Shown: piece after piece, positions 5,437-37,244 of the stretch
How the letters are laid out: each line of letters starts with the position of its first letter
Numbering within the stretch: position 1 is the stretch's first letter
Source of the DNA: a virus
Virus record (IMG/VR): IMGVR_UViG_3300031382_000008
Coordinates: 1 to 37,244 of that record
Length of the DNA: 37,244 nucleotides
Strand: one strand, 5' to 3'
Notes under the pieces: model-generated
Database searches by the model: none
What the model was told of the DNA's origin: nothing
What the model saw: only the letters and a program-made list of their open reading frames with translations
Made by a program: the position numbers and the translations under genes

Positions 5437-6507
5437 ATGAGCGAACTTAGAGCAGCGCTAGAGCAGGCAATGTCAGGCGGCGACGATGAGGGCAAGGAAA
5501 ACATAGAATCTGTAATAGCCCCGCCTGAAAATTTAAACGTAGAATCTTCAGAAATAAAGCCTGCGGAAACGGATTCGTTAGAATCAAAAGATTTTAACAA
5601 ACCTAACGAAGATGAAAACGAGTCGAAAAATAAAGAAGGGGCTGAAGCGTATAAAAATTCTAGCGACCCAAACCACGAAAAGAAAGAAGACCCAAGCAGT
5701 AAAGTCGAAAAGCCACCCGTAGGTTGGACGCCAGAAAGTAGGGAACACTGGACAAAATTGCCAGATAATGTTCGTAAGCAGATTAGCAAGCGAGAAGTAG
5801 AAGTCAACAAACTTTTGCAAGATACTTCCAATGCGAGACGTTTACACCATGAGTTTAATAGGACCGTAGAGCCTTACAAAGCTTTAATGGCGTCCCAAGG
5901 TGTAAACAACCCGCTAGAAGCGGTAAACGGTTTGCTAGAAACAGCCGCCGCTTTGTCAATGGGAAATCAAACTCAAAAAGCACAGCGGTTAGCAGGGCTT
6001 ATTAAACATTACGGCATAGATATTGAAACGCTAGACGGCGTGTTGGCGGGTGAAGCACCGCAGCCAAATCAAAATCAAAATCAAATGAGTCCAGACATTG
6101 AGCATCTAATAAACCAACGCCTTGCGCCGTATGAGCAAGAACGGACCCGCGCCGCGCAACAGCAAGATTACGAAATAAAGCAGCGGGCGGCAAGCAGTGT
6201 AAGCGCGATAGCTAACAAGGAGTTTTTCAATGACGTCCGCATGGATATGGCAGATATTGTAGAAATGTCAACTAAACGCGGTCAGCACATAACAATGGAA
6301 CAAGCTTATGAAAGAGCAGTTTCAATGAACGAAAACATACAAAAAGTAGTTCGCGGCAGAAATAGCAGTTCTGACCTCAGCCAAAAACAAAATGCGGCAG
6401 TTGGTATACGCGGAAATAGGTCTAACGTGCCGACCGGTTCAGGTAATTTAGATTTACGTTCGCAACTAGAAGAAAACTGGAATACCGCGTCAACCGGAAG
6501 AACTTGA
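5437..6507 (+). CDS. Capsid scaffolding protein (probable)
   Basis: This 356-residue protein lies immediately before the major capsid gene. About the first 90 residues are very acidic and disordered (rich in E, D, N, S, K). A conserved-looking segment PPVGWTPESREHWTKLP follows, then a long run of charged helices with Gln-rich linkers. This matches the scaffolds of podoviruses, which guide procapsid assembly and then leave or are degraded. AGGAGT nine bases upstream supports the ATG at 5437. The C terminus (about 320 to 356) is basic and polar, as in scaffolds that contact coat protein. Low complexity makes the family call dependent on context. Confidence 0.82.
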   Translation: MSELRAALEQAMSGGDDEGKENIESVIAPPENLNVESSEIKPAETDSLESKDFNKPNEDENESKNKEGAEAYKNSSDPNHEKKEDPSSKVEKPPVGWTPESREHWTKLPDNVRKQISKREVEVNKLLQDTSNARRLHHEFNRTVEPYKALMASQGVNNPLEAVNGLLETAAALSMGNQTQKAQRLAGLIKHYGIDIETLDGVLAGEAPQPNQNQNQMSPDIEHLINQRLAPYEQERTRAAQQQDYEIKQRAASSVSAIANKEFFNDVRMDMADIVEMSTKRGQHITMEQAYERAVSMNENIQKVVRGRNSSSDLSQKQNAAVGIRGNRSNVPTGSGNLDLRSQLEENWNTASTGRT

Positions 6508-6532
6508 CACCGTTTAAACACTAAGCTAGGCT
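6504..6532 (+). promoter_or_regulatory. Weak putative promoter before the capsid gene
   Basis: A perfect TTGACA (6504..6509) is followed after 17 bases by TAGGCT (6527..6532), a poor -10 box. The GTTTAAAC octamer at 6512 sits in the spacer. Transcription from here would start inside the foldable element at 6530..6619 and disrupt its outer stem, so promoter and structure are competing readings. Confidence 0.25.
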
Positions 6533-6619
6533 AAGGGTAACATAACCAGAAATAGACTATATCTGCCACCTGTTAAAAGGACAGTCCATTAAGTCTCAAT
6601 TTCGGTTCAAACCCTTAGC
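6530..6619 (+). other. Long foldable RNA element in the capsid gene leader
   Basis: The 189-base gap before the capsid gene contains nested inverted repeats. GCTAAGGGT (6530..6538) pairs with ACCCTTAGC (6611..6619), nine perfect pairs. Inside this, AACC (6544..6547) pairs with GGTT (6604..6607), GAAAT (6549..6553) with ATTTC (6599..6603), and AGACT (6554..6558) with AGTCT (6592..6596). An apical CTGT/ACAG hairpin (6570..6573 with 6581..6584) has a seven-base loop. That is about 27 pairs in 90 bases. No T run follows, so it is not a simple terminator, and it does not fit tRNA arms. An RNase III site or a stability or translation control element is a reasonable inference. Confidence 0.65.
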
Positions 6620-6696
6620 TATTTGCCCACTCTTAGGAGAGCAAAAATACAGCGCAGGAAAAACAGACCTTAATTTTAACCTAATGGAGAGCTAAA

Positions 6697-7692
6697 ATGC
6701 CTTTTGCAAACCCTAATATCAGCGATATTATGGCGACTACGATTGAAAACCGTAGTAAGAAAATCGCTGATAACGTAACAAATAACAACGCGCTACTTAA
6801 ACGCCTAAGCACAAAGGGCAAAATCAAAACTGTCTCTGGTGGTACTTACATCATGCAAGAGCTTTCTTTCGCAGAAAACTCTAATGCAGGTTGGTATTCA
6901 GGTTACGACATTCTACCTACTGGTGTCACTGATGTACTTTCAGCCGCGCAGTATGATTGGAAACAAGCTGCTGTACCCGTTGTAATCTCAGGTCTTGAGC
7001 AACTACAAAACTCCGGTAAAGAAGCAATGATTGACTTGATGGAATCTCGTCTATCGGTAGCTGAATCGACTCTAGCCAACCTTATTACTGGCGGTCTGTA
7101 TTCAGACGGCACAGGCGCAGGCGGTAAAGAGATTGACGGTTTAGACGCTGCATTACCAGTAGACCCAACAGCCGCGCCGTATGGCGGTATTGATGGGGAC
7201 ACGTTTAGTTTCTGGCGTAACGCAGTAAGCGACCAATCAGCCGCTAATGGTTTAGACCCAACGAAAATTCAAGGGTTCTGGAACCAGTTATGGGCTAGCC
7301 TTGTTCGTGGTCAAGAGCGCCCTGATTTAATCATGGCAGATACCCAAGTATGGAATGCTTATATCGATTCTCTACAAGCGCAGCAACGCTTTACAAACAC
7401 ACAGTCGGCAGATGCAGGCTTTATGTCAGTTAAATTTATGGATGCAGACGTTGTACTTGACGGCGGTATTTACAATGGTTCAAACGGAACAGGCGCACCA
7501 ACCGGTACGGCTTATTTCTTGAATAGTAAGTATCTACATTATCGCCCTCACAAAGACCGTAACATGGTTCCACTGTCTCCAAACCGTCGTTATGCGACCA
7601 ACCAAGATGCTGAAGTTCAAATCATCGGTTGGGCGGGTAATATGACTTGTTCTGGTCGTCAGTTCCATGGACGTTACGACGCTAACGGTTAA
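6697..7692 (+). CDS. Major capsid protein, HK97-fold type
   Basis: This 331-residue protein directly follows the scaffold gene and has its own strong ribosome binding site (GGAGAG before ATG 6697). The N-terminal part is a charged helix followed by strands, as in the N-arm and E-loop of HK97-type coats. The segment TYIMQELSFAENSNAGWYSG and the C-terminal strand-rich end (VQIIGWAGNMTCSGRQFHG) resemble coat proteins of several podovirus groups. It is flanked by a structured leader upstream and a strong terminator downstream, which fits the most abundant product of the genome. There is no sign of a fused protease or scaffold. Confidence 0.9.
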   Translation: MPFANPNISDIMATTIENRSKKIADNVTNNNALLKRLSTKGKIKTVSGGTYIMQELSFAENSNAGWYSGYDILPTGVTDVLSAAQYDWKQAAVPVVISGLEQLQNSGKEAMIDLMESRLSVAESTLANLITGGLYSDGTGAGGKEIDGLDAALPVDPTAAPYGGIDGDTFSFWRNAVSDQSAANGLDPTKIQGFWNQLWASLVRGQERPDLIMADTQVWNAYIDSLQAQQRFTNTQSADAGFMSVKFMDADVVLDGGIYNGSNGTGAPTGTAYFLNSKYLHYRPHKDRNMVPLSPNRRYATNQDAEVQIIGWAGNMTCSGRQFHGRYDANG

Positions 7693-34718: not shown

Positions 34719-35951
34719 TTAAACAGCGTTAGCTAGTGATTGAGTCATGGCGGTAATTGTTGGCGCATTAACTTTTAATAATACGCTGCTGTATTCACCC
34801 GGCGTCATACCTTGTTTCACGGTATCCGCTATCATCGCGAGCTTGGCATCAACTGGTAGATTGCTCGATGCTATTTTACCGGCTTGTTTTATTGTGCGCG
34901 GCGTTATATCGGAACCGTGTATGCCCTTATTTGTGATTACTTGGCGCAAGGCGCGCATATAGTTAACTATTGGTTCACTAGCTAAACTATTCTCAATGTT
35001 AGCGCTGTAGTCATGCTCAATGCGAATGAAGCGATTTAGCGTAGCCTTGTCTAATCTAGCACGTCCGTTATAGTCACTACTTGCACCGGCACCGGTAGTA
35101 TTCGCGGTAACAATAACGCGGTGGTTATCGGTGCGCTTTTTGGTTTCACCGTCGGGAAATGTCAGTTCACCGGCTAAGTCAAAAATCGCCATGATAGTAA
35201 CAAGGGCGCGAGGGCATGAAGCGTCAATCTCATCAATGCAAAGTATCCCGCCGTCACTATCTAACCACTTGCGTACGATGCTTGCAACATAGCCGCTAGG
35301 CAACAATGCACCCAGTACTTCAAACTTGCTTAAAATCGCGCCCATTGTAAATATGGGTAAATCTAGCCCTTTTGCTATTTGCGTCGCGGTTGTAGATTTA
35401 CCGGCACCGGTGCGACCGTAAAAATACAAATCATTGCCTACTGATATATGGTTAAGCGCGTTCGTGTAACACTCATGCGTTACGCCAACAACATTACTAG
35501 ATACCGCGCCGCTTGCCTTGGTCAAGGCTACTTCGACAACGGTTGGCGCTTTTGAGTGTTGACCTATCAATTCAAGTACTCTTTTTTCATCAAGCGGGGC
35601 AGTTTTGGCGCCTGCCATTTTAAGCAATAACTCAGATAGTAAATCGGCATCGGTTTTAGTAGTCGTTGGTGTTTGTTCCTTTATAGGGTTGTTTGTTGGT
35701 TCCGGCGTTGGTTCCGGCGTTGGTTCCGGCGTTGGTTCCGGCGTTGGTTCCGGCGTTGGTTCCGGCGTTGGTTCCGGCGTTGGTTCCGGTGTGCTGTTCA
35801 ATTCTAATTGATAGCCGGTGAACTGTTCACGCGTCATTAGGTCAAAATTGTACGCAAGGTTAACCACTTCAGCATTGCTCATGCCGCGGGTTGGCTTGCT
35901 ATGTTGAGTCATTAGCGCGGTCTTATATGCTTGGATTGTTGAGTTATTCAT
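34719..35951 (-). CDS. CobS/MoxR-like AAA+ ATPase with TPEP repeat
   Basis: This 410-residue protein has an N-terminal helix-rich part (1 to 53), eight TPEP repeats (54 to 85) and a Thr-rich linker. The AAA+ module follows: Walker A YGRTGAGKSTT (178 to 188), Walker B GILCIDEID (235 to 243), sensor 1 VTANT (281 to 285), and an Arg-containing LNRFIRIEHDY at about 305 to 315. It resembles the CobS/MoxR branch, which works with VWA-type partners to remodel proteins or insert metals. The gene next to it is DUF7192-like and the upstream gene is an SprT-like protease. The final Val codon and TAA stop lie inside a GTTTAAAC octamer. Confidence 0.85.
   Translation of the reverse strand: MNNSTIQAYKTALMTQHSKPTRGMSNAEVVNLAYNFDLMTREQFTGYQLELNSTPEPTPEPTPEPTPEPTPEPTPEPTPEPTPEPTNNPIKEQTPTTTKTDADLLSELLLKMAGAKTAPLDEKRVLELIGQHSKAPTVVEVALTKASGAVSSNVVGVTHECYTNALNHISVGNDLYFYGRTGAGKSTTATQIAKGLDLPIFTMGAILSKFEVLGALLPSGYVASIVRKWLDSDGGILCIDEIDASCPRALVTIMAIFDLAGELTFPDGETKKRTDNHRVIVTANTTGAGASSDYNGRARLDKATLNRFIRIEHDYSANIENSLASEPIVNYMRALRQVITNKGIHGSDITPRTIKQAGKIASSNLPVDAKLAMIADTVKQGMTPGEYSSVLLKVNAPTITAMTQSLANAV
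35701..35796. repeat. 12-bp tandem repeat (TPEP coding)
   Basis: The unit TCCGGCGTTGGT occurs seven times exactly from 35701 to 35784, followed by one altered unit (35785..35796). On the - strand each unit encodes Thr-Pro-Glu-Pro. Changes in copy number keep the frame, so linker length may vary between isolates. Confidence 0.95.
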
Positions 35952-37116: not shown

Positions 37117-37244
37117 ATTAATAAACAGTATGTTACATAGATATGAGTGATAGATATTGCATGGCGTTTAAACAGCTCGTTTACACACACACCACCATGC
37201 CGCGCCGTTTAAACGCATTTAATTTAATGTATTTTTTTTTTTTT
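37117..37244. repeat. Terminal direct repeat, right copy
   Basis: This repeats positions 1..127 exactly and then adds one more T. The sequence just before it (37054..37116) is non-coding and belongs to the GTTAC-rich region. The unique genome is therefore about 37,116 to 37,117 bp. Confidence 0.9.

Follow-up and report, generated by a model that had tools for sequence, protein, structure and literature searches.

What is the function of the structured RNA that precedes the capsid gene in the phage genome held as IMG/VR record IMGVR_UViG_3300031382_000008? The DNA analysed (the window) is the whole stretch of 37,244 nucleotides. Its first and last 128 bases (1-128 and 37117-37244) form a direct terminal repeat, in which 127 of 128 positions are identical. 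Because a direct repeat with one mismatch stands at both ends, the window is taken as a near-complete and probably complete phage genome of about 37.1 kb. The gene order is terminase, portal, small genes, putative scaffold, leader and major capsid protein (Table 1). A first-pass annotation, made by a model from the letters and a list of open reading frames, had placed the structure between a scaffold and a capsid gene. The identity of the capsid gene is supported by its profile match. The product of the upstream gene had no PHROGs or Pfam match, and the name scaffold, given by position and composition, stays putative. Homologs of this gene were present in 21 of 22 relatives searched and in all eight of a second set. 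By capsid, the closest cultured relatives are Stenotrophomonas phage BUCT555 (65%) and the Myxococcus phages Mx9 and Mx8 (about 60%). The search for relatives at the DNA level in the phage collection yielded nothing beyond one stretch of a neighbouring gene.

Table 1. Features of the capsid leader and of the two flanking genes, in window coordinates.
Feature	Position	Strand	Basis or detail
Putative scaffold gene, 356 aa	5437-6507	+	between portal and capsid; charged composition
Whole leader	6508-6696	+	ORF boundaries: putative scaffold stop codon to capsid start codon
Irregular long hairpin, helices of 9, 4, 5, 4-5, 3 and 3 bp	6530-6619	+	fold and close relatives
Outer helix, 9 bp	6530-6538 with 6611-6619	+	MFE fold
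Helix, 4 bp	6544-6547/6604-6607	+	MFE fold
Helix, 5 bp	6549-6553/6599-6603	+	MFE fold
Helix, 4-5 bp	6554/5-6558 with 6592-6595/6	+	MFE fold
Tip, two 3-bp helices	6563-6565/6582-6584 and 6569-6571/6578-6580	+	around CCA/A internal loop
Module copy A, tip of long hairpin	6563-6584	+	CUG.CCA.CCU-GUUAAA-AGG.A.CAG; descriptor match
Module copy B, a hairpin of its own on the 3' side of the long hairpin	6622-6645	+	UUUGC.CCA.CUC-UUAG-GAG.A.GCAAA; descriptor match
Possible third, weaker copy, permuted	6549-6603	+	GAAAU.A.GAC ... GUC.UCA.AUUUC; A6554 facing U6596-A6598
Shine-Dalgarno GGAG of the capsid gene	6686-6689	+	sequence
Major capsid protein gene, 331 aa	6697-7692	+	phrog_9953 major head protein, E 3.6e-110

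Fold and conservation of the long hairpin

The first-pass annotation described five nested helices of 9, 4, 5, 5 and 4 pairs at 6530-6619, ordered beyond chance. Folding against shuffled controls bears out the order. The minimum free energy (MFE) is -27.9 kcal/mol, compared with a shuffled mean of -13.0 (sd 2.5; z = -5.9), and none of 200 dinucleotide shuffles folds as well. The helices of 9, 4 and 5 pairs were recovered and the next has 4-5 pairs; in place of the last four-pair helix, two 3-bp helices enclose an internal loop, CCA facing A. The stem comprises about 28 irregular pairs. The structure sits where it had been placed, within a span that was drawn too narrowly, as a second hairpin with the same loop lies at 6622-6645. 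Sliding 90-nt segments over both strands scored below -5.9 in 3 of 2478 cases, two of which are one overlapping structure at 35671-35820. This is the strongest fold of the window (+ strand, z down to -10.7). It lies opposite a low-complexity part of an AAA ATPase gene (34719-35951, minus strand) and is probably a repeat effect.

Compensatory changes were found in five close relatives (capsid 90-93% identical). Standard pairs fill 94.1% of the cells, compared with 23-51% in slid controls, and six pairs are changed on both sides (shuffled mean 2.1), both figures covering 6530-6619 plus the next hairpin (copy B). Two of the six changes are located in the outer stem, two in copy A and two in the copy B hairpin. 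The middle helices are invariant in the close relatives and therefore uninformative on covariation, and the outer 9-bp stem is kept in the closest clade only.

Rfam 15 gave no family match at gathering score anywhere in the window, and on 6300-6900 nothing but a chance 12-bit lncRNA match. ARAGORN detected no tRNA or tmRNA genes in the window, and no intrinsic-terminator-like or sigma-70-like site was found within 6400-6720. Both results agree with the earlier statements that the element is not a tRNA and lacks a T run. A small RNA released from the late transcript, which had been offered as one function, finds no support, as neither a promoter nor a terminator signal was found in the region.

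Independently of the fold, the palindrome GTTTAAAC occurs at 28 sites in the window, within and between genes (e.g. 50, 91, 418, 2475, 6512, 7703, 22475, 22499, 37207), with one copy at the start of the capsid leader. Base composition predicts 0.9 sites and a high-order Markov estimate 20. The relative G005 has 28 copies as well, the other genomes compared 0-7.

The CCA/A module in capsid leaders

The conserved feature, overlooked in the first-pass annotation, is a recurrent CCA/A module. It consists of a helix, CCA facing a single A, and a second helix, in the order helix-CCA-helix-loop-helix-A-helix. Homologs of copy A in relatives have the outer helices AGUG/CACU, ACUG/CAGU and UCUG/CAGA, and the inner CCU/AGG is changed to CCC/GGG. 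For copy B, the relatives have UCGC.CCA.CUGU-UUAA-ACAG.A.GCGA and UCGC.CCA.CUC-GCAA-GAG.A.GCGA. The candidate third copy can just as well be read as an A-U pair and a CA bulge, and its invariance in the close relatives leaves it with no covariation. Among the 1x3 loops of leaders A/UCA ranks second (12), yet close to background; UCA/A was rejected as a full variant, being barely above background, and is kept as a possible one. Among the cultured phages, the leader of Mx9 carries ggc.CCA.ccc-UCU-ggg.A.gcc and that of Mx8 agcgag.A.gc-CUCG-gc.CCA.cucgcu, each together with further copies, while the leader of BUCT555 has no module by the descriptor used.

Capsid homologs were collected from IMG/VR with four protein queries and complemented by pattern-found loci and by loci from prokaryote genomes. 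Each leader was taken to run from the end of the long reading frame before it to the start of the capsid gene. The non-redundant set comprised 144 cases, 128 of them with a leader of at least 60 nt (60-445 nt), the limits being set by reading frames and perhaps wrong in some cases (a few exceed 300 nt). The module was present in at least one orientation in 98 of the 128 leaders, a count that stems from a rigid descriptor and therefore misses cases and includes some chance matches (about 7 leaders expected), and from related loci, so that counts are not independent (the tree and the variety of helices reduce the effect of kinship and do not remove it). Dinucleotide shuffles gave 6.8 leaders (sd 2.5, maximum 14), and capsid coding stretches of equal length contained the module in 3 of 128 cases.

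The loop is specific. In a survey of all 64 x 4 loops of the 3x1 type in either orientation, CCA/A occurred in 98 leaders, and no other class in more than 15. When CCA lies on the 5' arm, 88 matches compare with 11 for the next class, and in the permuted orientation 51 with 12. Descriptor-free MFE folds contained 49 CCA/A loops (29 and 20 in the two orientations) and at most two of each other 3x1 or 1x3 class. The antisense strand of the leaders yielded 4 and 4 matches versus 88 and 51 on the sense strand, and a reading at the level of double-stranded DNA is rejected on this background value; G-U versus A-C pairs (17 versus 9 extra matches) point, weakly, in the same direction. The density is 4.9 modules per kb inside the leader and 0.12 per kb in the surrounding DNA, with one to four copies per leader.

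The helices are free. Instances were also picked without regard to the outer helix, by CCA, apical stem and A alone. Their outer positions 1-4 were paired (Watson-Crick or G-U) in 92, 92, 76 and 59%, compared with 27-33% in coding controls, and every pair type was represented. In a blind IMG/VR scan with CCAGCCNCGGTAGCA, matches in capsid leaders extended into a helix, pairing at least 3 bases; matches outside capsid leaders did so at about the chance rate. Six matches outside leaders with pairing flanks (L106, L107, L150, L162, L165, L170) fit that rate and were discarded. As read from these sequences, the flanking helices covary fully while the CCA/A loop stays invariant. Most module hairpins are short, with 3-7 plus 2-3 bp and 5-10 pairs in total.

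One part of the capsid tree has CCA on the 5' arm, another has it on the 3' arm; some leaders have both. In the permuted topology the internal loop is unchanged and the hairpin loop closes its opposite end. The internal loop is thus the conserved entity, and since it is kept through permutation while the helices and hairpin loops are free, recognition of the loop itself is indicated. On the capsid tree, presence or absence changes about 20 times and orientation about 8 times, rough counts because the FastTree topology has many weak branches. The module may have been repeatedly gained and lost, as a rough picture, or may lie below detection in places. By the descriptor, 30 of the 128 long leaders, about a quarter, are without it; some of these have the loop in a larger hairpin or UCA for CCA (L062, L058). 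None of the 16 short leaders (<60 nt) has a module. Homologous capsid and (mostly) scaffold genes are present in the module-free short-leader clade.

Leaders L037, L212, L214, L216, L050 and L384 share another recurrent hairpin, stem-NNUCA(A/C)GC-stem, the stems of which are free. It reaches three copies per capsid leader, occurs mostly where CCA/A is absent, and is possibly a replacement module.

Leader architecture and proposed role

Whole leaders fold better than shuffles (mean z -2.9) and tend towards three parts: a stable 5' hairpin, the modules in mid-leader (their centre at a median of 47%), and a 3' part prone to pairing with the ribosome-binding site (RBS). Between the modules and the capsid start codon downstream lie about 40-170 nt, with a median of 81 nt from the module 3' end to that codon. 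A perfect stem of at least 10 bp is found in 39 of 126 leaders compared with 6.6% of shuffles. These stems centre at 19% of the leader, and a T run follows the long stem in 2 of 126. Across 119 leaders, the Shine-Dalgarno accessibility is 0.19 compared with 0.27 in shuffles (Wilcoxon p = 1.4e-5). In the window, the predicted probability that the Shine-Dalgarno bases are unpaired is 0.31 (shuffles 0.21), so they are not specially sequestered.

Long perfect hairpins without a T run directly follow the scaffold stop codon in many leaders (e.g. L018, L025, L031, L038). The 5' long perfect hairpins are candidates for processing or stability elements. In the window, hairpin B carries (6634-6642) TTAGGAGAGC, which resembles the capsid RBS AATGGAGAGC (6683-6692) and has no start codon after it. 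The CUC arm of this hairpin, the partner of TTAGGAGAGC, could in principle pair with the real RBS AATGGAGAGC.

A translation switch for the capsid gene, one of the functions suggested at first, fits best, because the element is leader-specific, strand-specific and multicopy and the RBS is less accessible family-wide; the unhidden RBS of the window itself does not share in this. With somewhat better than even confidence, the element is regarded as a cis-acting protein-binding module in a regulatory capsid-gene leader, most likely a translational operator. The recognition unit would consist of a 5'-CCA-3' opposite one A, with a helix of arbitrary sequence on either side. Each leader would display one to four such modules, in either topology, between the 5' hairpin and the RBS-pairing region, and a protein that binds them would thereby set access to the capsid RBS. 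The translation of the capsid gene could thus be tuned relative to the preceding scaffold gene by an autogenous or assembly-coupled operator, and capsid synthesis would be coupled to the assembly state. Structure, covariation, the invariance of the loop, the restriction to one strand and one place, copy number and permutation were observed here; protein binding, the translational effect and a virion protein (capsid or scaffold) as partner are what we infer. At the median distance of the modules from the start codon, repression would need a long-range or cooperative effect. The window RBS, no more hidden than in shuffles, the module-free leaders, BUCT555 and the short-leader clade also count against an operator. 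The operator has more support than a reading as RNase III site, tRNA-like element, terminator or small RNA.

The window genes were compared between module-bearing and module-lacking genomes. The genes detectably shared by the module-bearing phages compared, Mx8 included, belong almost entirely to the virion and packaging block (terminase and portal, putative scaffold and capsid, and several other late genes; a few contigs miss single genes), and the replication genes differ among the module-bearing genomes compared. No window gene was both present in every module-bearing phage and restricted to such phages. As nearly all shared genes are virion or packaging genes, a phage-encoded partner would be a virion or assembly protein, unless a host protein takes this part; this elimination, combined with sequence search, could miss a fast-evolving small protein. 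By position, capsid or scaffold would be the natural candidates. That, in a large group of tailed dsDNA phages, the capsid protein or the scaffold protein regulates its own synthesis via CCA/A is a tentative proposal, rather less than probable. The partner could just as well be a host protein or RNA polymerase.

It is unlikely, as the best-placed of the other explanations, that the leader serves mRNA processing or stability. A cut by RNase III or another nuclease would yield a capsid mRNA with a protective 5' hairpin, and CCA/A would be part of a nuclease or protector site. The capsid gene is the one most in need of a longer-lived or separate message, and the perfect stems of at least 10 bp lie mostly near the 5' end. 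The long irregular stem of the window has an outline like phage RNase III sites, and the RNase III site originally suggested stays conceivable for this stem and for the 5' perfect hairpins. The conserved module hairpins are mostly far too short for RNase III, which is therefore not favoured for the conserved part, and a fixed CCA/A loop is not required by this enzyme.

Rather improbable is an operator for a host protein (e.g. a ribosomal protein) or a ribosome-recruiting enhancer of capsid translation. Several short hairpins in the leader of a presumably very highly expressed gene would suit this explanation, as would the lack of a module-specific phage gene. The same descriptor applied to 16S, 23S and 5S rRNA of E. 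coli found no CCA/A hairpin, and mimicry of an rRNA site, as in a ribosomal-protein operator, was rejected for E. coli.

Still more doubtful is an element that would act in cis on RNA polymerase to bring about antitermination or pausing, like the HK022 put RNA, a likeness judged via Rfam only. Strand-specific short hairpins in an operon leader are in line with it, and no accessory gene is detectably tied to the module, as expected for a partner in the host machinery. Against it, the element lies midway along the late operon rather than at the beginning, and the search for terminator-like sites in 6400-6720 found none. Chance structure without function is refuted for the module, with hardly any probability left: other structured stretches exist in the window, but neither the 98 of 128 leaders (6.8 expected) nor covarying helices around an invariant loop agree with it.

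Related systems and meaning for tailed phages

The coat operators of the RNA phages MS2, Q-beta and PP7 are short mRNA hairpins with an unpaired A in the stem that are tied to virion protein synthesis; they bind coat protein at the replicase start codon. The capsid-leader element shares with them the short phage mRNA hairpin whose stem is interrupted by an unpaired A. It differs in belonging to tailed dsDNA phages, in its CCA/A loop, in its multiple copies upstream of the capsid gene and in a ligand that is only presumed. Post-transcriptional control of a head-assembly gene of a tailed phage is represented by the autoregulation of the P22 scaffolding gene. There the control acts on the scaffold gene, whereas here the element precedes the capsid gene, and we know of no CCA/A element in the P22 system. 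T7 RNase III sites are similar as irregular stem-loops between late genes, but what is conserved here is a particular loop within short hairpins and not a long duplex. Bacteria and RNA phages offer well-known cases of regulatory leaders in which protein-binding hairpins are repeated. To our knowledge, no such conserved element has been known for the capsid gene of tailed dsDNA phages.

A role of a CCA bulge has been indicated for the phi29 prohead RNA (pRNA) (Zhao et al., 2008, as cited in PMC6765105). As far as that citation goes, the likeness lies in a head-related phage RNA that carries a CCA bulge, and extends to three letters only. The pRNA is a separate packaging RNA with one fixed fold, whereas the CCA/A element has the form of a 3x1 loop with an A opposite and recurs within an mRNA leader. 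The C-loop is a recurrent asymmetric internal loop among RNA 3D motifs (PMC8570644). Its hallmark is a characteristic set of non-Watson-Crick pairs in three dimensions. CCA/A resembles it as a recurrent asymmetric internal loop and is known here from sequence alone. The literature searched, with subscription papers largely outside its coverage, held no usable sequence consensus for the C-loop and no earlier description of such an element. The CCA/A capsid-leader element is thus apparently undescribed.

If control by the capsid or scaffold protein is true, head proteins of tailed phages or their scaffold would be specific RNA-binding regulators. The signal that keeps the proportion of shell and scaffold becomes directly testable, partly in Mx8 and Mx9, which are in culture. 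With their invariant loop, free helices and two topologies, the roughly 140 natural copies represent a ready mutational data set for a small RNA recognition module, and the CCA/A module would be useful as a tag or switch if the partner is found.
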